A stretch of DNA of 64,000 nucleotides from Turbatrix aceti (taxonomy: Eukaryota; Nematoda; Chromadorea; Rhabditida; Panagrolaimidae): assembly GCA_963969345.1 (NCBI GenBank), contig OZ017770.1:4907246-4971245 (forward strand), read 5' to 3'. Positions 4,301-62,495 of the stretch are shown piece by piece. The number at the start of each line of letters is the position of its first letter. Positions within the stretch are counted from its first letter, which is position 1. Made by a program: the position numbers and the translations under genes. The notes under the pieces were generated by a model that saw only the letters and a program-made list of their open reading frames with translations, did no database searches and had not been told where the DNA came from.

Positions 4301-7300
4301 ATGTCGGACATTGAAGATCCGTATGCCGTCAGCTCGGATTCCGAGGATGAAGAAACGTTGAAAAAACCACCGCCGAAGATCAATATTGAAAATCGTGCCA
4401 TCTCCAATATCCAAGACTTGGTAAGTTGCAATTTTTGATGACCAGTGACCCATTTGACTTTGAAAGATTAAAGCCGTTGACTTTAAAGTCCGGGCCAAGC
4501 GAATGCTTCAACCCCGGACAGTTGTCTAATTAATCACCTTTTTAGAAAGCAGCCATCACCGAGAAGAAGGAAAATACCAAAGATGAAGCGCGTCAAGAAG
4601 AAATTGAAGAACTGCGAAAATCCAAAGCAGCCGAAATGACAAAAGTAAAAAAAGAATTTGAAGAGAATAAGATCCACAACGCGACCGGTGTCCCTGTTCA
4701 GGAAGAGTTGAGTAAGGATAAACCGACAGGTCTCAATAAGGTAACAACCCGTATTGTCGTGTACAATGTGCTAAGCGTCCGTTCATCTTTAGGATACCCT
4801 GACTGCATTTAAAGACAAATTCGAAAAGTTCCACCAACATGAGGATGAAACCCTCGACGACCACCTCAAGACAATCGCTCTCGAAGGTGTGGGTAAAGAA
4901 AACCTCGCACAGATGAAGGCTACGTTTGAAAAACTTCAAACCGGTGAGCTGACCGTTGCCGAGGTTCGCGATGGCCAAGGCCTCGATTTTGAGTGTAGCG
5001 AAGCCGACAAAAGACGAATCCTCGCGGCTTTCATTGGCGTAAGTTAAATTATTTTTGATGAAAATCATGCTAATTGGTCTGTTTCAGCCCAAGAGTGAGG
5101 AAGACATTCCTAAAAACTGCGCGCTTTGCGAAAAGACTGTTTATCCTGTTGAGCGACTTTTTGCCAACAAAAAACTTTATCACACAGACTGCTTCCGCTG
5201 CAAGACATGCAACAAGAAACTAAGGTTTGTACTTTTTTATTCTTTGTTTGATTTACTAGTCAAAGAAAAAATCTATTTCTAGCGCCACGCAGTACAATAT
5301 CTATGAAAACGTGCTTTACTGCAAGCAGCACTATAATGAGGTTTTGCATCCTGATCTGACGCATGCCGTTGCAGATGGTGAGCCAGTTAATCCACAATAG
5401 CGTGACTCATTTATTTTTGTTTTGTTTTTCAGACAGCGCCGATCAAGCTGATGCCGCTGACGATGACGATGAGTTTGCTATCGTGTCTAAGCCAAAACAA
5501 CTCTCGTCCGATGTTGTGCGAGGTAAGGGATATGACCTTTCCTGAATGTAATCAATTTTGTCGAAGTGAAAAGGTGTCCCGATTTTTGTTTTGTTTTGCA
5601 ATCTGTCCTGCATTCTATTCGACTCCCGCCGGTCAGACCCAACTAACAGTTTGTTACCAATTCGCTCACTTCCCCCCTAAGCCTACAAATGCAACAAAGG
5701 GCCGATCGGCGAGAGAAGAGAGACACAGCGAGAATGGGAAGGGGATATATTATCCCGTACAACGAAAGCGCCGTTCTCTTTCCCGGCTGGCCGCTCTGTC
5801 CCTGTCACCATTTTTGCACATCCCATAAACATTCATAACATCGTCAATCCAACTAACTCCTTCTTATTTCTGCTGGTCATTTGTTCATTTTGCTCGTTGT
5901 ACAGTCTTGGAGTGTTTTAATCAACATTTCTGTGTTACCTAATAGCTATGGTTGTACAGCGTACGTCTCCAATTATTTGTTTTGATTTATGACAATCAAG
6001 TAGCTTTTAGCGGGTACCAACATCGGTGATGAACTCCAGCAAATTCGAAGCCTCAAGGAAAAAAAGCAAAACCTTGAAAGCTCGCTCAAAGCTCAAGAGC
6101 AAGTCAAAAAGCCCAAAGAAGAGATTCTCGAAATTAGCGGTAATGTCAAGGACAGGATGAGCAAGTAAGTATGTCACGGGCCTTACATTAGCTAAACATC
6201 CTAATTTTTAGAATCATCGCCGGCGGTGAAAAGGACGTTAACGACAACGATGACGAGGCGACCCGTGAAGAACTCGAGGCCATCAAAGCCCAGGTCGGCG
6301 ATCTCAAAAACAAGTGGAAGACCGGAGATGTCGAAAAAGCCGAAGTCAAGGACGGCGATGCCAAGTCGGAGCTTGAACAACTTCGCAAGGGTGAAATCAA
6401 GGTTCGCGAACGCTTTAACGAACGTCTGCAGCCGGCCGAGAGCGAAAACGTCACCAAATCTTACGATCGTACTGAACTTGATACTTCGCGTATGTTTTAT
6501 CAGTCCGACTGTCTACTCTACAATATCAACACATTTCAGACGCAGCTGAAGCTCGAAAATCATTCCTTGATGGCCAGGCCTACCAGACTGCAAAGGCGGA
6601 AAAAACTGCTACGGATCTTGACGAGCTCAAGTTTACTGGTATGTTTTTTCACTTATTATCCTAGTGTGAGTCAAAAGCAAACAAATCCTGCGTTCGTTGT
6701 TGAGAGGGATGAGGGAGTCTTCGCTGACGAGATCCATCACTCGCCCCCGCAGCTTTACAAAACGTCAAATCACAGCTGTCGATCCATATGACCGGCCGGT
6801 TGACCCACCACATTTGTTTCAGGACTTGGAACATTTAAAGATAAATTCGAGAAAGGCACCGGTGCTACTGAAAGCTCTGAGCGACACAGCATCGATATCA
6901 ACGTTGAACTCGGAAATATTAAAAAGGCTCTTGAAAAGGTAAGCTCTATTTTTTTAAAGTAAGCTTAATTAATTATCATTTCTTTTTAGGGCGGCGTGGA
7001 CGAAGCCGACATGACACCTGAAGAACGAGCTGAGCGCAAAAAGAAGGAAATTGAAGCGGAATTCCTTCGCTACAAGTTGGCACGCAAGCTTCAAGAAAAG
7101 AAAGCGAAGGAAGAAGCTGCCCAAGAAGAGCCCGCACCTGCCGAAGGTATGTTTACATTGTTTTTCAGAAAAAAAAATTTTTCGCGTTTTTTTAGAAAAA
7201 ACAACTCCCGAAATTGAAATCAAGATGGCTGGAAAGGCACGCGAAAAGTTCCGCAACATCGAAGCCCAGAACCCCAACTCCATTCCTTTGCCCAAGCAGG

Positions 7301-8258: not shown

Positions 8259-10124
8259 ATGGATACGTCTTACTGTAACGGTCGGTATTATTACGTCATG
8301 AACACGGGTAGTCCTGTGATACCAGCTCGATCGGATATGCTACCTTACACGATGACCGGCACTGTACCGATCGGCAACTTTGTCACGTCGCACCCCGTAT
8401 GTTTGTGTTTTGGTATCGATCAGAGAGCGAAAGTTCGCTTTATAGGTCGAAGCTCTAGCTCACAATGTTTCCCGTCCCTACGGCGGTGCCCTCTCTGTGG
8501 TATGTTTTAACAGTCCCGCATGCTGAACACGTTTTACCCCCTCCTGTGGACTTTTAGCCGGAGTATGAAGCCCTCACGGATTACATGAACCGCCTCAACA
8601 TGTCTTCGCGGGGTTATCTGCCGCACTGGGTGTACGACGAAAGCGGCGCCATCTCGGCCACGCTTCAGGACATCGTTGATCAAGACCTGCTTTTTGTTTG
8701 CATGCGTGATAAGAAAGGAAGCCAGTAAGTCAATTTGAGGAGAAAAAAGGAGAAAAATTACGGTGGTTTGCAGATTCGTTCAAGACAACTTTCCCACGGT
8801 TGAGAAGAACCCGACGTTGAGGGCATCCATTTTTGACCTCATCATCGCGTCGCAGTCGATTCACAATATCGCGAAAGACATGTTCGGGAACTTTGTACTG
8901 CAGGTCAGTTTTTTTATGAAAAAACAGCTCTTTAAATTTGAATCTTTGATGCAGTTTTGGTAGAAAAACGAAAAAAACGAATGACGTGAAAAAAATATCA
9001 AACAAGTGTTAGACATTTTTTGCGCCGTTTGATGACATTTAGAACAAAAAATGGTGATTAAAATAGATTGAAGAGCGTTCTCGAAGTTTCTTCTGTTTTT
9101 TTTCAGAAAATGATCGAACAGACCGGCGACGATTACGGCAAGGTCTTCTTGGGCATCTTGGCCAAGGAAGCAGCGAACCTTTCGTTCAACCGTTTCTCGT
9201 GCCGCGTCGTACAGAAGGCTTTGGAAGTTTTCCCCGCAGCTGATCTCGATCCGATGATGATTGCTTTCCACGGCTATGTCAAAGCCATGTGCACCGATCA
9301 AAGCGGAAATCATGTCGTACAGAAGATGATCGAAGTCCTGCCACCGGAATCCTACAGTTTTGTCATCACGGAGATGTGCCAGGGCACCAACATGCCTGAC
9401 ATTATCTGCAACAAGTTTGGATGCCGTGTTGTTCAGTACTGCGTTGAGAAGCTTACCGGGTTCATCGACAAGGACGTTCAGCGTGGAGGGTTTGTAGTTT
9501 TTGTTTGTGCATGCACGTTTTGTTTTTGTTTTTTTTCCATTTTCAGCTGTGTTGCGTCCGCCCTTCTTCGCGAGCTGCTGCAAAACATCAGCAAGCATGC
9601 GTTGGAGTACAGCAAAGATGAGTATGCCAACTACATCATCCAACACATCATCAAGCACAAATATCTGAAGCACTTTGCAAATCAGATCATCAGCTGTCAG
9701 TTAAAGGGTCATCTGGTATCCCTCTCCTTGGATAAATTTTCGTCGCACGTCGTTGAAGAAGTCTTTGAGCATATCTCTGACAAACTCTTTCCCTTCGCCA
9801 TCGACGAGATATTCAACGGCAAGGTGAACCCCAAGTGAGTTATGATTGAATCGACAAACATGGCATTTCATATTTTTTGATTACAGGAATGGGCGAGATT
9901 CCCTCGAACAAATGCTTTTTGATCAGTATGGGAATTACGTCATCCAGCGCCTGCTCAACATTGCCGTCGGCATCATCCATGACAAACCCGACTGTCAACT
10001 TCCGTGGTTTGATTATATCGTGAACAAGATCACCAAAAACGCCAAACAATTGCGCGTCTTTTCTTCCGGTAAAAAAATCATCGATCTCCTTAACCGTGAA
10101 CTCAGTCAACCTATCGCTTGCTAG
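8259..10124 (+). CDS. Pumilio/PUF RNA-binding protein with eight PUM repeats
   Basis: PUF proteins bind 3' UTR elements and repress or destabilise mRNAs. Exons 8259-8396, 8558-8724, 8774-8903, 9107-9489, 9547-9834 and 9887-10124 give 447 residues, almost all PUM homology domain behind a short N-terminus. Eight repeats are visible. Their base-reading residues are R1 S-Q-Q (GSQFVQ), R2 N-F-Q (GNFVLQ), R3 C-R-Q (SCRVVQ), R4 N-H-Q (GNHVVQ), R5 C-R-Q (GCRVVQ), R6 N-Y-Q (ANYIIQ), R7 S-H-E (SSHVVE) and R8 N-Y-Q (GNYVIQ). By the established PUF code, read from R8 to R1, this predicts UGUAUAUA, the classical Pumilio element rather than the longer FBF site. Compared with fly and human Pumilio, the long low-complexity N-terminus is missing or lies in unrecognised upstream exons. 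Confidence 0.95.
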
Positions 10125-54184: not shown

Positions 54185-55030
54185 TTTTCCGCCGCGCACT
54201 TACCTAGCAAAAAACAGTGCAAACAGCCTCTTTTTCGCGTCAATGGACAAAAAGAAGCGCATGCGAAGAGCCATGTTCAAAAAAATACCCTGAAGCCAAT
54301 TTGTGTTTCTTATGTTTGCGGTCACATGAGTATGATCAGGCATTTTCCGAAGATTGTTTTAAGTTAGTCGTGCTCCTTATTGCATAATTTTGCAGTATGT
54401 TTCGGCATTTCGAAGTTTCCTAATTTGTTTCGGCTGTAGCGATGCGCAGAATGGTCAGATTAAAAGCGCAAAACACTAAAAACATTATTTGGGGCATGCC
54501 TGAACCTACCCAGGTGATCGTAAACAAAAAAAACAAAAATTGGCTTCAGGGTATTTTTTTGAACATGAGTCCTCGCACACGCGCGCGCGCTCTTCGGAGA
54601 TCGCGGTCTGGTCGAACCTCCTAATTTTTTGTGTTTGGTATTCCTGGATACACAAAAGAATAAGCTGTAATATTATGCCGTCCTTACCCAATTCCCGATA
54701 AAAAAATACAGCTGCTATATCCCAAAAATGACGAGAAAGTCCCCAAAAAATCCGAAAATCGATAATGCCAAAAAATGAAGACGTTTTTTTAAGAAATCTG
54801 AGTAAGCCAATCGATATTTCGTGTCAAGAAATCCCTGTATACATAAAAACTGATTTTTTTAAATCATTTGAAAATTTAACGTCAAAACTTTTCAGAAGCC
54901 GCGGCTTTTGAAATAACATTTTCTCTAAGGGTACTCTACTACTTAAGCGTATGCAAAATTGAATATCTCGCATGTGTAAAATCGCTGTTCCGTTAAAACT
55001 AAATCGGCTCGCAGACCGGCTGTTAAACAT
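54185..55030. mobile_element. Second, decayed copy of the foldback element
   Basis: Blocks of 54200-54380 and 54480-54600 are inverted relative to each other and match the inner arms of the element at 24766-26795 (the TTCA..CCCTGAAGCCAATTT and CACGGTCACCTGGGT-like stretches). The centre, about 54385-54470, is unpaired. The block 54790-54910 matches the CGATTTCTCGTGCCAAGA part of the arm, and AAATCGGCTCGCAGA near 55002 matches the terminal sequence. Arms are shortened and diverged, so it is older than the first copy. Confidence 0.7.
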
Positions 55031-55102: not shown

Positions 55103-55142
55103 ATGCGTCTCGTCAATATCCCATTCATCACCTGCGAGTTGG

Positions 55143-55533
55143 TGTTGTATCCGCGGCGTAAGGCAAAAGAGGAAGACAAAGAAGTGTTGCAACCCGCGCT
55201 CCAACCTTTGGCGCGAGGGGCCAGCCGCGCGAGCTAGCAAGTCGTTAGACAAATGACTTGCGCCCGCGGACGCGATCAACACCTTGTTCCCTCTCTTTGT
55301 CTATCTCCCTGCCACAGTATCCGGAAGCAAACAACGCCCCATTAGCATCTTTATATAAGAGCCTAAGACACGGGGTTTCACGAACCACTGTCTAGGGCCA
55401 AGTCCCCCGGTTGCTTGTTGTAATTTGTGTGATTTTGCTGAATAAATTTGATTGTTGTATTGTGATATTGTGATTGGTATTGTTGTTAGAGGAGTTAAGT
55501 AGGGAGCCTTAGAGAGGAACCGGGTACACATTA
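55143..55533 (+). repeat. 5' LTR (391 bp)
   Basis: It starts TGTTGTATCC and ends ACACATTA. A TATATAA box at 55352-55358 and AATAAA at 55441-55446 mark likely U3/R/U5 signals. The sequence matches the 3' LTR throughout by eye. Confidence 0.95.
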
Positions 55534-55534
55534 C

Positions 55535-55551
55535 TGGTGCCACTCCCGCTC
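55535..55551 (+). other. Putative primer binding site
   Basis: TGGTGCCACTCCCGCTC begins one base after the LTR and begins with TGG, the complement of tRNA CCA. The priming tRNA cannot be named without a tRNA set from this genome. Confidence 0.6.
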
Positions 55552-55646: not shown

Positions 55647-58600
55647 ATGACAAACTCTCGGCATACGTACTCGAAAATGCCATCCCTATTCGAAAACTGC
55701 CACACCGTCGAACAGCTAGTCAAAACGCTGATGGTATTCGAAAAGAGCACGTTGTTATCGATAAATAATTTGGAAACCGCGATCAAGGAAGTAAAGGAGG
55801 ACATTCAGACCCTCAAGGATCGACAAGCAGATGTTATTGAAGAGCAGGTGAACATTGCGCTCACAGAGAAGATTGGTGATGCTTTGCACGGCGACACAGA
55901 CAAGTACGATGAATTGAAGAAGCTTCTTGGAACGGCTTTTACGAAGCAAACGACGGATCACGAGAAAACTACGATACGATTGACGGCATTGACCGAACTA
56001 ACTACGAAGGCGTGCAACGCTACGAAACAGCTTGATGAGCTGCGTGACGAAATCCGTAAACTGGAGACGAAAATTAACGAACTGAATCTAGACTCAAAAC
56101 CGAAACCCCCTACGCTAATTCGCCGGGATAAATTTTGTGCTCCGATGAAATCCCAGGCCATGCTTGACCCCACTGCTCAGGCAATCGAGCAACTACGAGC
56201 CCTGTCTATGCAAAGCCAAGCTCCCCAGTCAAGCTCAACGGAGTACCACACTACGAACGTCATGTTTGGGACAATGAATTCGATGTTCCACTTTGACAAT
56301 GGCTATTTTGTCGATGACATGGACGAATTTCCTGACGACGCTAACGACGATCCGCCGACGCAGGCCCCAATGCTCATGATAGCCATGAACCCAGCGATTG
56401 ACAGCTGCCCCATGTTCGATGGTTCACCAACGCAGGCATTCTCCCACTGGCTCCGCAAGTTTGAATTATACATTGCCCGAGGTCCCTTTCATTTACTCGA
56501 AGGACAACGCCTTGCCCATCTTGTTTCCAAATTGGAAGGTGCCGCATTTTTGGCTTACGATGCTTTGAACGCTGCCGTTCGTGCAGACTACGACGCAACT
56601 TTGGAAGCCCTGAACCGTCGTTTTCCGAGCCGTACGGCTAAACTCGCTGCAGAGGAGAACTTCGGACAGTGCTACCAGCAGAAGGACGAAGCGGTGCATC
56701 AATTCGCGACTCGCCTTGCCACTCTCGTCTACACCATGATGGAAGGCGATCCTCCTGAAATGATCGAAAACGTGCTTCGACGCGAAACCATCAATCGCAT
56801 GAACGGTGAATTGCGCGCTTACGTTCGTGGGCATCAGCCAGCGACCACCGAAGAAGCTGTTGCCATGGCTCATCGTCAAGAGCTTATTCAGGCAGAACGT
56901 GCCAGAGCCCGAAAGGAAGTTCATGACCTCCAGAATGCGTTTAAGGCTTCCATGCGAATCGGTGAGACGACGAACGCCTACAAAAACAGCGAATGTTTTT
57001 ATTGCCACAAAACTGGACATATTGCGCGCCACTGCTACCAACGCAAACAGGACGCAGATGATCGATCCCATGGTACTCGTGACCGCTACCAAAACGATCG
57101 TAGGTCACGCAACGACAGCCGCGATCGAAACCGTCGGAACGACAGCCGCGATCGAAACCGTCGGAACGACAGCCGCGATCGAAACCGTCGGAACGACAGC
57201 CGCGACCGAGACCGTCGCAGCGATAGCCGAGATTACAGTCGGCACTATCGTAGCGATAGCCGCGACCACCACGAACGCAATCGCAACTACCGAAGCGACA
57301 GTCGCGACCGCTATGAAACCAATCGTTACCGCAACAATAGCCGTGACCGCTATGACCACCACCGGAAGAGAAGCGATTCGAGCGGCTCCGATAACAGTCG
57401 ACATGGAGGTAGACGGCAGTTCAGCAAATCGCCCGACCGTAAACCCTCTGTCCGCTTTGCCAACCAACATTCGATTTATTCTATGGCCATGCCTATTGCA
57501 TCCTCTGTGCTAACTCGACCAGACAATCGCCCGAAAACACGACCTTTGTCTTGGACTTGGAAGACAATCGTGCTCTGCGTACTCGCTCTCTTTGTTTTTC
57601 CGATCCAAGCACACTCGCAGAACGACGACGTCTTGTTTTGCACCCACGATGCTGTCACCTCGTATTGGACCTTACCCAACAAGCCACCCTGCCATGCACC
57701 CACATTCCGCAAAAATGATGCTATTGTAAACACTAACTGGGAAGTTTACCGACCGAACACTATCGAGTACAAAACTGAGGCACACCACTGCCAGTGCATT
57801 CGCACTACCCAGACGCACAGCTGCTCATTTTTTGGAACAGACGTTTATTCCGATGCCATCCATGACCCTATTCCTACCACCAGCGCCGATTGCAAACGAA
57901 TGGCCACTGTCCAAATTTCGGAACATGGAACCCTGCTGAACCATACTGATTTCTTCGCTACGAACAATACTTTGATTTTTTCTGATCGCTGGTGGCCGCG
58001 CTACATGTGGAGTGAAAAGCAGTCAGTCGTTAATTGCTATCTTACGACGACGCACATTTACACCCGCCACGGAACAGAAGAGGTCACGAAAATCGTCCCA
58101 TCGGCAACCGCTTGCTACTACCGCCAAGGCTCGTGCCAACTTGCCGAACAAGGTGTACTAATCTGGGAGCCCGATAACACGCATCAGTGTCGCTTTATTC
58201 TAATGCAGGCAATGCATGGCTCATTCGGTGGAAATACATTTATCGCCGAAAGCAAGCAATTTGCACTATCGTTTTCCAGTAACGTCAAAGAAATTCCTAT
58301 TCGTGATTGCAACAAGACCATGCTTGTCACCGATCAGGGATACGCCATAACGAACAAGACATGGCAAGACGCTCAACAGGAACTCGAACATGCAGCCGAA
58401 TTGAAGCGCATTCCGCGCGACGCTGGTATTGTTCTAACGAATCAACTGGCCGCGCAACTCACTGCCCTTCAACGAAACGCTGACAACGTTGCCAGACAGT
58501 TTTTCGAGGCATCCATCAAACACATTTGTTCCGCTCTCGAAGCTATTGCCGAAGCAACCGTCGCCCTCGCTACAGCCAACCCAACTTTGCTGGCTCGCGA

Positions 58601-61600
58601 ACTGCTCAACCAAACCGCAATCAAAGCCCGATTGGTTACAGCGACAACGCTCGAAGTCAAAACGTGCAACGCCCTACCGTTTGAGTCAGTAACATTTTTG
58701 CCTCAACCCGAGTGTTACAACCGCCTGCCGGTCGAATTCATCTACCATGGACGGAAACTGCAAGCATTCCTGGATCCCATCACCAGAATTCTTGAACCGT
58801 CTGCCGACCGAGTCAACTGTGCCGATGTTCCGTACATTCATTTTGATCGACCGAATAACCAACTACAGCGGTACGATCAGCAAACCGGCCACATGGCATT
58901 TGTTCACAGACTCGCCGAGATTGGCCGTTTCCGCAACGTTGATTTCCCGGAACTATACGTTGGCGACAAACACCAAGTCTACGCTAATCTGATTCTGACG
59001 AACCTTTCGGAAGTATTTTCCTTCCAACAATTCTACAACGATATCGTGAACCACATGGACGTGAAAGATGTGATCGACACACTGGACTACGCATCCAACG
59101 CCGTCCCTGGAACTCGGACAAATTCTATCCGATCAGCCCAGACTGAAAAGGCCAAACAATTTGCCGAATCACTAGTTGCTAATGGTCTTTTTGGATTCCT
59201 CACAGGTGGACTTATTTCTCCAACTCAACTCTGGGTATTTTCGTGTTGCATCTACATTACCTTGACAATCGCTGCAAGGATCATTCTCCCAGCCCTGATT
59301 CAAGAATGTATGCGCTACGTCAATCTGCCATTCCTGACAACCCGTCTATGGCACCGCGCACGCACTTGGCGGAGAAATAGAAACTCCCACGCCCAGGACG
59401 CTACCGAAGAACCCACTTTGCCCTTGCAACAAATGTATCCAATTCGCAACCAAGTGAGCACCACGTGCGTCAAGCTAAGTGGTTTTATTAACGATCTATC
59501 AGCCAGACTGCTCGTCGACACCGCTGCCATGTACTCGATCATTCATCAGTCATTCGTTGACCGCTACAATATTCCAACAACGAAACCAAACGAACCCTAC
59601 AATCTCGTAGGTATTGATGGAACACCGATCAAGGTCAATGAAGTCGCGCATGTCAAGCTCAGAATTGGCTCACAATGTGTCGAAGTCAAACCACTGGTAC
59701 TCGACCAAGAATTGTTCGATGACCACTACGACGTACTGGTTGGAGAAAGCATTCTCAAGAAGCTGAACGAGATCACCATCAACTACACTGCAAAAACTTG
59801 TCGAATCGGTAGCGAAACTTTCAAACTTTCCCAGGTACTCGTTACTCTTCCGAAAAAGAAGGACGAACTGCTATTCTCGGATACTGGAATTTCTGGTGAC
59901 AAACTCATCGATCTTTGCGATTTGATCCAGCGCCACGACGACATATTCAGTCGAAACGACAAAGATCTGGGACGATGCACCATCACTGCTCCTCGCATGC
60001 GTGTCACCTCGACTAAACCGATCTCGACAATGCCGTATCGTATCCCAGAAAAGGCAACTCCCGCAGTCGATAAGTTTATTACGGAAATGCTGGACGCGGG
60101 CGTACTCGTGGAATCTACCACGCCATGGGTCAGCGGAATCGTAGTCGCGCCAAAGAAAAGCGGTGAACTTCGTTCTTGTGTCGATTTTCGACGCCTGAAT
60201 AACGTCACCGAGACCGACCCCTTTCCACTACCACGGATTGAGACTCTACTAAACCGTACTGCCGGCTGTTATTGGTATTCCACGTTGGACCTAAAATCGG
60301 GGTTTCTACAAATCCCTCTGGATGAAGAAACTAGTCGGTATTGTGGCATTACTACCGAAAAAGGCATCTACCAATTCAAGACTATGCCATTTGGTCTGAA
60401 GAATGCGCCTGCAATATTTTGCCGCGTCATGTCCACCGTCCTGAAGGGATTGGAAGACGTCGCATTGGCGTACATGGACGACGTGATTATTTTCACGAAG
60501 TCGGAAGACCCTGCTACGCATCTCGCCGCGCTTGAGAAAGTCTTCAAACGATTTCGCGAATTTGGTCTCAAGATTCATGCCTCGAAGTGTTCGCTGGTCA
60601 ACCGACACGTCACTTACGTCGGTCACCGAATTGATAGCGACGGTATTAGTCCATCAGACATTCACGTTCGTGCGATCAAGAACTACCCCGCTCCAACATC
60701 TGCACAAGACGTGAAACGCTTCCTTGGACTGGCCAACTTCTTTCGAAGATTCATCCCTCACTTCGCAACCATTGCTCGCCCTCTGACGAACCTGACTCGC
60801 AAGAACGTTCCATTCAAGTGGTCAGAAACCGAGCAGATCGCATTCAACACGCTGATCCTCGAACTGACGAAACCACCAGTGCTCGTTGCCCCCAACTACG
60901 ACCGTGAATTTGTAGTTCACACCGACGCCTGTCTTGAAGGCCTTGCATCTGCGCTACTCCAAGCAGACGACAACGGAAACCTTCGTGCAGTTGCTTTCTT
61001 CTCTCGCCAACTGACCAAGGCGGAAAAGAACTACACAATCACCGAGCTCGAACTTCTGGCACTTGTGGCAACGCTGGACCACTTCAAGCACCTGCTTTAT
61101 GGCACACAAATCATCTGGAACACTGATCACAATCCACTGACTCATCTCCAGAGTGCCTCTTCGAAATCGGCCCGCCTCAATCGATGGCTCTTGCACATCC
61201 AAGACTTCGATATCGTCCCGTGCTACATCAAGGGTCCGAACAACCTTGTTGCCGACGCCCTGTCACGCTCAAGTCTTCCACTCGACAACGCTTCAAGCCT
61301 GAACACGTACTCGTACTTTGGTTTTGAACCCGAAGCTGAGGAAGACGATGAAGAAATCGATAACGAGGCGACCGAACCAGATCAATCGATTGAAATCCCG
61401 AAAGCCGACACTCTGATGACCCCCGAAGAGGACGCTGTGATTCAACACGTCATTAAAGCTCTGCTGAAAGGCTGGAAGACTCCCACAGAAGCCGAGCTGC
61501 GCCCTTACTTCATCGCTCGTGCCGAACTACATGTGGAGAACGGACAACTCTTCAAAGACAGCCGCGTTGTTGTTTCCCCCAGCCAGCGCAAGCATGTGCT

Positions 61601-62495: not shown

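Follow-up and report, generated by a model that had tools for sequence, protein, structure and literature searches.

In the literature examined, one earlier report describes an envelope (env) placed in frame between gag and pol, namely for the gypsy-like Burro element of planarians, in which env stands between gag and the protease (PR) within one polyprotein (PMC6431247). The same arrangement is found in the element studied here, a Ty3/gypsy-type long terminal repeat (LTR) retrotransposon of the nematode Turbatrix aceti. It lies in a window of 64,000 nucleotides, the whole stretch of DNA that was analysed (assembly GCA_963969345.1, contig OZ017770.1, positions 4,907,246 to 4,971,245). Statements on published elements refer throughout to the available portions of the cited papers. 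Burro is more than 30 kb long, its ORF1 of 4,873 aa comprises BCL2-like, BIR, dUTPase-like and other domains, and its Env was likened to gypsy Env and to mononegavirus fusion proteins (PMC6431247), whereas the element in the window measures 7,982 bp, shows no Burro-type extra domains in Pfam at E 1 and has a predicted Env of class III, similar to herpesvirus glycoprotein B (gB).

A single uninterrupted polyprotein including Env, together with identical LTRs, is also known from the hookworm element Atlas and related belpaoviruses (PMC9094657), which qualifies the description of env in known elements as usually a separate or spliced frame in the earlier note on this DNA. Atlas differs from the window element by its order Gag-Pol-Env, its BEL/Pao reverse transcriptase (RT) with a YVDN motif and its C-terminal, phlebovirus-like class II Env (PMC9094657), while the window element has a YMDD motif in its RT and a class III-like env in the middle of the frame. 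The mosquito element Anakin, which is BEL-Pao by its polymerase, is an LTR element with a chuvirus-derived glycoprotein, and no statement that this glycoprotein is encoded between gag and pol within a single frame was found in the available text; Roo, Tas and Cer-7 have envelope-like proteins downstream of the polyprotein, one of the three being herpesvirus-derived (PMC7642597). Glycoproteins of Jingchuvirales adjoin LTR-Gypsy sequences in insects, and two integrations are described from nematodes, flanked by simple repeats; the authors see no clear evidence of glycoprotein capture by Gypsy or Copia elements (PMC10084718). Cer1 of C. elegans is a nematode Ty3/gypsy element with one long frame, as is the element in the window (PMC10309623, PMC3315495), but no envelope between gag and pol was found in it, and its CERV, which is nuclear, comes from a frame 3' of pol by way of a spliced mRNA (PMC10309623).

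No open reading frame (ORF) of at least 150 aa follows position 62495 in the ORF list of the window. The Errantiviruses of insects are, like the window element, Ty3/gypsy elements with env, which in their case is a separate frame after pol, unlike the env between gag and PR described here. The Errantivirus envelope is likely to come from a baculovirus (PMC12440569). Membership in Troyka was rejected, as the CG..CG ends and the 3-bp target site duplication (TSD) of that group (PMC12440569) are not seen in the window element. The available portions of PMC3118150, PMC8556966, PMC11118728 and PMC11952523 report no gag-env-pol order, and no description of nematode gag-env-pol elements was found in the literature searched, most subscription journals and bioRxiv-only preprints lying outside its scope. 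The gag-env-pol order that the earlier note described stands; its statement that env is placed after pol in known elements does not hold for Burro (PMC6431247). What is new here are compact nematode gypsy elements with a class III env and gag-env-pol order, in many families and in recent copies.

The gag-env-pol order in a single frame is real in the window. The frame starts at a TTG (55644) or an ATG (55647) and ends with the stop codon at 62493-62495. Pfam, run on four separate pieces of the polyprotein, matched PF00078 for RT, PF17917 and PF17919 for RNase H, and PF17921 and PF00665 for the integrase (IN). As proposed beforehand, PR, RT, RNase H and IN follow the env block in the same frame, and gag with its CCHC knuckle at residues 450-463 was found both here and in the near-identical copy L039 (L numbers denote loci of the T. 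aceti genome). The order PR-RT-RNase H-IN with gypsy-type RT/RNase H and integrase conforms to Ty3/gypsy, by Pfam and by trees which held no reference Errantivirus, Cer1 or BEL-Pao sequence; the LTRs, the polypurine tract and the 5-bp TSD likewise fit Ty3/gypsy (Metaviridae, TSD of 4-6 bp). Those Pfam models that we take to be specific for BEL-Pao gave no match at E 1 in the window frame. A chance open frame is not credible because of the 2282 codons, the ordered domains and the recurrence in many families.

The block between gag and PR passes the Pfam model PF24664 (Monjiviricetes_fusion) with an E-value of 7.6e-10 and 37.8 bits, the cut-off being 27. Its fold as modelled by AlphaFold resembles, in structure searches, herpesvirus gB and the glycoproteins of mononegaviruses and chuviruses, with a long central helix between beta domains as in the gB and rhabdovirus G fold. 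The signal-like helix, previously placed at residues 636-655, has its hydrophobic core at about 635-653, and the C-terminal membrane helix, previously at 1195-1217, is located at about 1200-1218. The long Cys-rich region with N-glycosylation sites between them was recovered too (19 Cys and 6 N-X-S/T sites in the block). A basic stretch precedes the hydrophobic signal and an arginine-rich tail follows the second helix. A furin-type site near the central helix is present in all 15 main-lineage sequences examined and kept across species. Only one of seven env-less loci (L049) has a hydrophobic segment, which is its RT active-site strand. With env profile A1, 51 pattern matches but no confirmed one were obtained in IMG/VR, and scans with PADLOC and NCBIfam gave nothing informative. 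The identification as an envelope, formerly drawn from topology only, is thus supported by the profile search and structure prediction against fusion glycoproteins that had been called for, by the putative processing site and by selection in sister families.

Regarding selection, the ratio of nonsynonymous to synonymous substitution rates (dN/dS) was estimated by the Nei-Gojobori method (NG86). Between L032 and L036, where dS is about 1 or above and the values are approximate, it amounts to 0.050 for env, 0.057 for RT-RNase H, 0.090 for IN, 0.140 for PR and 0.181 for gag. The L032/L034 family gives 0.102 for env and 0.188 for RT-RNase H, and in the four locus pairs where the ratio is computable for env it ranges from 0.05 to 0.12. 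The env is under purifying selection in sister families and is kept about as strictly as the polymerase.

The order is not confined to the window. The T. aceti genome (59.9 Mb, 28 contigs) contains 30 matches to PF24664, while none was found in 14 control genomes. With the best 150 of 227 RT candidates, 23 of the 30 env matches have an RT downstream on the same strand within about 3 kb, the open-frame length being equal for env and RT in 21 of these pairs, and none of the 30 has an RT upstream within about 6 kb. Twenty loci were fetched, and their domains were located by similarity search with separate pieces of the window polyprotein. Gag, env, PR, RT, RNase H and IN follow each other in one reading frame in L031-L034, L036, L037 and L039, and also in L038, where the gag match is shorter. 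L035 keeps the order with a frame that stops before the main integrase match; in L042 gag, env, RT and RNase H were recognised by similarity and PR by its motif alone. An insertion of a host gene in this one copy, set out beforehand as the outcome that would speak against the proposal, is rejected, since many families share the order. The spread is recent as well: the two 391-bp LTRs of the window element are identical (0 mismatches in a direct-repeat comparison), and env-bearing copies have spread recently, since L039 is 100% identical to the window element across env, PR, RT, RNase H and IN and has identical LTRs of its own.

A second lineage comprises L040 (frame of 2501 aa), L041 and L050. 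Signal, env, anchor and PR follow the matching order there, and its env piece, 761-935 aa long, includes a long threonine-rich, mucin-like insert. RT was not found in L050. In L041 the env-PR frame and the RT-RNase H-IN frame overlap by 178 bases (5867-6044), which suggests either that recoding takes place between PR and RT or that the copy is broken; a search for a simple slippery heptamer gave none. Among the 24 RT matches in frames of at least 2000 aa, four lack an adjoining PF24664 match. One of these is L042, with its env recognised by similarity, and the other three (C1:10326871, C6:3964116 and C6:10979955, frames of 2077-2493 aa) may carry other extra domains.

The closest relatives outside T. 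aceti come from Panagrellus, Panagrolaimus and strongylids. Together with 145 exact copies of spliced leader 1 (SL1) in the genome and an innexin gene in the window, they mark the host as a nematode, probably a panagrolaimid; Oikopleura was rejected as host, a pattern for its spliced leader having given no hit. A search for elements of the same order, which had also been suggested, showed that P0008 of Panagrellus redivivus (2285 aa; 55% identity to the window element over 377 residues of RT-RNase H) combines CCHC, env, PR, RT, RNase H and IN in a single protein, as do P0009 (2245 aa) and P0010 (2612 aa) from outside datasets. In the partial proteins P0002-P0007, PR comes after env; three of these proteins belong to strongylids, hookworm among them. 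P0005 is the only one of five partial relatives scanned with PF24664 above the cut-off. In public databases the hookworm protein P0003 (env-PR-RT) bears the name 'putative ATP synthase F0, A subunit', which is likely a misannotation.

Several observations weigh against the interpretation as a lineage with a class III envelope. The AlphaFold confidence is moderate (mean pLDDT, the predicted local distance difference test score, of 66), and the whole-chain root-mean-square deviation (rmsd) to gB is at least 30 Å in many comparisons; for both reasons the class III assignment rests on many consistent fold matches and not on one good superposition. Searches of PDB chains by sequence gave no match at E 1 with the block and three matches, all at chance level, with env profile A1. 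PF24664 is not matched at E 0.01 in the pieces of L031 and L042 (the place of L031 reaches 31.2 bits in the genome scan), is absent from P0008 at E 1, where env was recognised by its similarity to the window, and stays below the cut-off in four of the five partial relatives scanned (P0003, P0004, P0006, P0007). For seven of the 30 env matches no RT lies within reach on the same strand, and the gag of the second lineage, which shows neither a CCHC knuckle nor a gag match, is assigned by position only. The dN/dS of env exceeds that of RT-RNase H between L031 and L032 (0.122 and 0.086), and no dS value could be defined for 10 of 30 comparisons, among them the two that use the window env. Finally, the protease of the window family has DTA where the relatives compared have DTG or DSG.

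Taking both sides together, we consider it probable that the element is a recently inserted nematode endogenous retrovirus of Ty3/gypsy type, from a lineage with an in-frame class III glycoprotein between gag and PR and with expression through a single precursor. One genomic RNA would give one precursor, which the internal signal sequence would insert into the membrane of the endoplasmic reticulum. Gag at the N-terminus and Pol at the C-terminus would remain cytosolic and flank a lumenal Env, because the basic stretch and the arginine-rich tail point to this topology by the positive-inside rule. On the lumenal side Env would be cut by signal peptidase and furin, and the cytosolic junctions between Gag, Env and Pol may be cleaved by the protease of the element itself. 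Candidate retropepsin sites lie in the linker between gag and signal, with the motif [IVF]RF[AG] in six of seven aligned sequences, and in the tail before PR, which reads MYPIR in the window, LYPVR in L031, LVPTR in L032 and LIPVR in L036; P0002, P0005, P0008, P0009 and P0010 lack this tail motif in the alignment. Env could then drive entry from cell to cell or into the germline by class III fusion. The wider proposal, an ancient and widespread group of nematode retroviruses with a membrane-threaded Gag-Env-Pol precursor in which Env bridges Gag and Pol in equal dose without splicing or frameshifting, appears to us evenly balanced between right and wrong.

How often the glycoprotein was captured was analysed with trees of RT-RNase H, from which P0003, P0004 and P0006 (RT piece too short) as well as P0023, P0024 and P0025 were left out. 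When gypsy sequences from outside are included, the 16 rows of the main lineage still group with one another (100/99) and L040/L041 are placed elsewhere in the best tree, implying two changes, or three with P0022 and P0026. Two independent class III captures at one site, one in the main lineage and one in L040/L041 with their mucin-like insert, instead of a single ancient one, are therefore a possibility which we put forward tentatively. However, a single clade of all 18 env-bearing rows is not rejected by the approximately unbiased (AU) test, neither in the rerun omitting P0022 and P0026 (p-AU 0.225) nor with P0022 and the long-branched P0026 included (p-AU 0.093), where the best tree also detaches L042 and P0007 from the remaining main-lineage rows. 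In the tree within the genome (with P0005 and P0007 added) a single branch (100/100) divides the 15 rows that bear env from the 7 that do not, and the env profiles of the main and the second lineage are related, with an hhalign match across 208 columns (probability 94.5, E 7.5e-8).

A different expression is conceivable, in which the block is alternatively spliced, Gag-Pol comes from a spliced RNA and Env from an unspliced or differently spliced one, and the long frame is a reservoir instead of the main product. Nematodes use cis- as well as trans-splicing, and SL1 is abundant in the T. aceti genome with its 145 exact copies. Cer1, moreover, joins a single long frame (PMC3315495) with a spliced CERV mRNA (PMC10309623). 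We nevertheless regard this separation at the RNA level as unlikely: with simple consensus motifs, no conserved 3' splice-site-like motif was found, as only three of nine rows have one within 600 nt upstream of the signal, at differing places and with one of the three (L038) mis-centred, and one of nine has an acceptor-like motif after the membrane helix. Besides, no stop follows this helix, and an env RNA made by splicing would still continue into pol. Most Ty3/gypsy elements move without Env, and it could be that Env is carried here without being used for entry, the element moving within the cell and Env blocking superinfection or having lost its fusion function. The deviating protease motif of the window family would agree with this, but env dN/dS values well below 1 in all four computable pairs, the furin-type site retained across species and the recent spread of env-bearing copies make it rather improbable.

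Retroviruses of the textbook type express Env from a spliced RNA of its own; gag-env-pol polyproteins that recur with a class III fusion protein, as preferred here, would be a different way to make and package Env. They would also show the capture of a Monjiviricetes-type glycoprotein by Ty3/gypsy, of which PMC10084718 reports no clear evidence among Gypsy elements. The worms are tractable for asking if elements of this kind are transmitted from cell to cell or from animal to animal.

The features of the element are given in Table 1. The putative primer binding site (PBS), starting with TGG, sits 1 nt past the 5' LTR. Its 14-nt complement has 15 genomic copies, 4 of them inside known copies of this element, and no primer tRNA was found among the 3 of the 11 remaining copies that were tested. 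The TSDs differ by copy (GTTGG in the window, CAAGT in L039, GAAGG in L037), and L032 has no clear TSD.

Table 1. Features of the element in window coordinates; the last line refers to another locus.
Feature	Position	Strand	Basis or remark
5' TSD copy, GTTGG	55138..55142	.	
5' LTR, 391 bp	55143..55533	+	identical to 3' LTR
Putative PBS, TGGTGCCACTCCCGCTC	55535..55551	+	position and TGG start
Single open frame, gag-env-PR-RT-RNase H-IN, 2282 codons	55647..62495	+	ORF listing, Pfam
Gag region	55647..57437	+	PNMA and DUF7083 matches below cut-off; resembles gag of other families
CCHC zinc knuckle, aa 450-463	56994..57035	+	also in near-identical copy L039
Internal signal peptide, predicted hydrophobic core, aa ~635-653	57549..57605	+	
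Predicted class III (gB-like) envelope ectodomain and stem	57618..59243	+	PF24664, predicted folds
Furin-type site RIPR, ahead of central helix	58407..58418	+	
Predicted long central helix, block residues 303-349	58437..58577	+	
C-terminal membrane helix, aa ~1200-1218, then arginine-rich tail	59244..59300	+	
Aspartic protease	59481..59759	+	active site DTA at 59517-59525
Reverse transcriptase, YMDD	60150..60632	+	RVT_1, E 2.9e-35
RNase H	60819..61208	+	Pfam
Integrase, H2C2 zinc finger and rve core	61575..62054	+	reads as D-D-E core
Polypurine tract, AAAGGGGGAGGGG	62721..62733	+	directly abutting 3' LTR
3' LTR	62734..63124	+	
3' TSD copy, GTTGG	63125..63129	.	
L038 locus	C1:1811000-1820900		SL1 at reverse-complement positions 375-396 and 8727-8748

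In the L038 family the exact 22-nt SL1 lies on the sense strand inside both LTRs with no GT donor after it, as would be expected if a trans-spliced RNA had served as the template for the R region. SL1 is also present in L029 ahead of other sequence, and L040 holds one copy. Elsewhere in the genome SL1 recurs at a spacing of about 1.5 kb (C4:728148-753676 and C5:3151492-3168744), which looks like a tandem SL array, and three copies on C5, 8,626 bases apart, may mark tandem elements. Immediately upstream of the element, at 54257-54582 of the window, there is an inverted repeat with arms of 137 nt that are 74% complementary, and an innexin gene is also present in the window.
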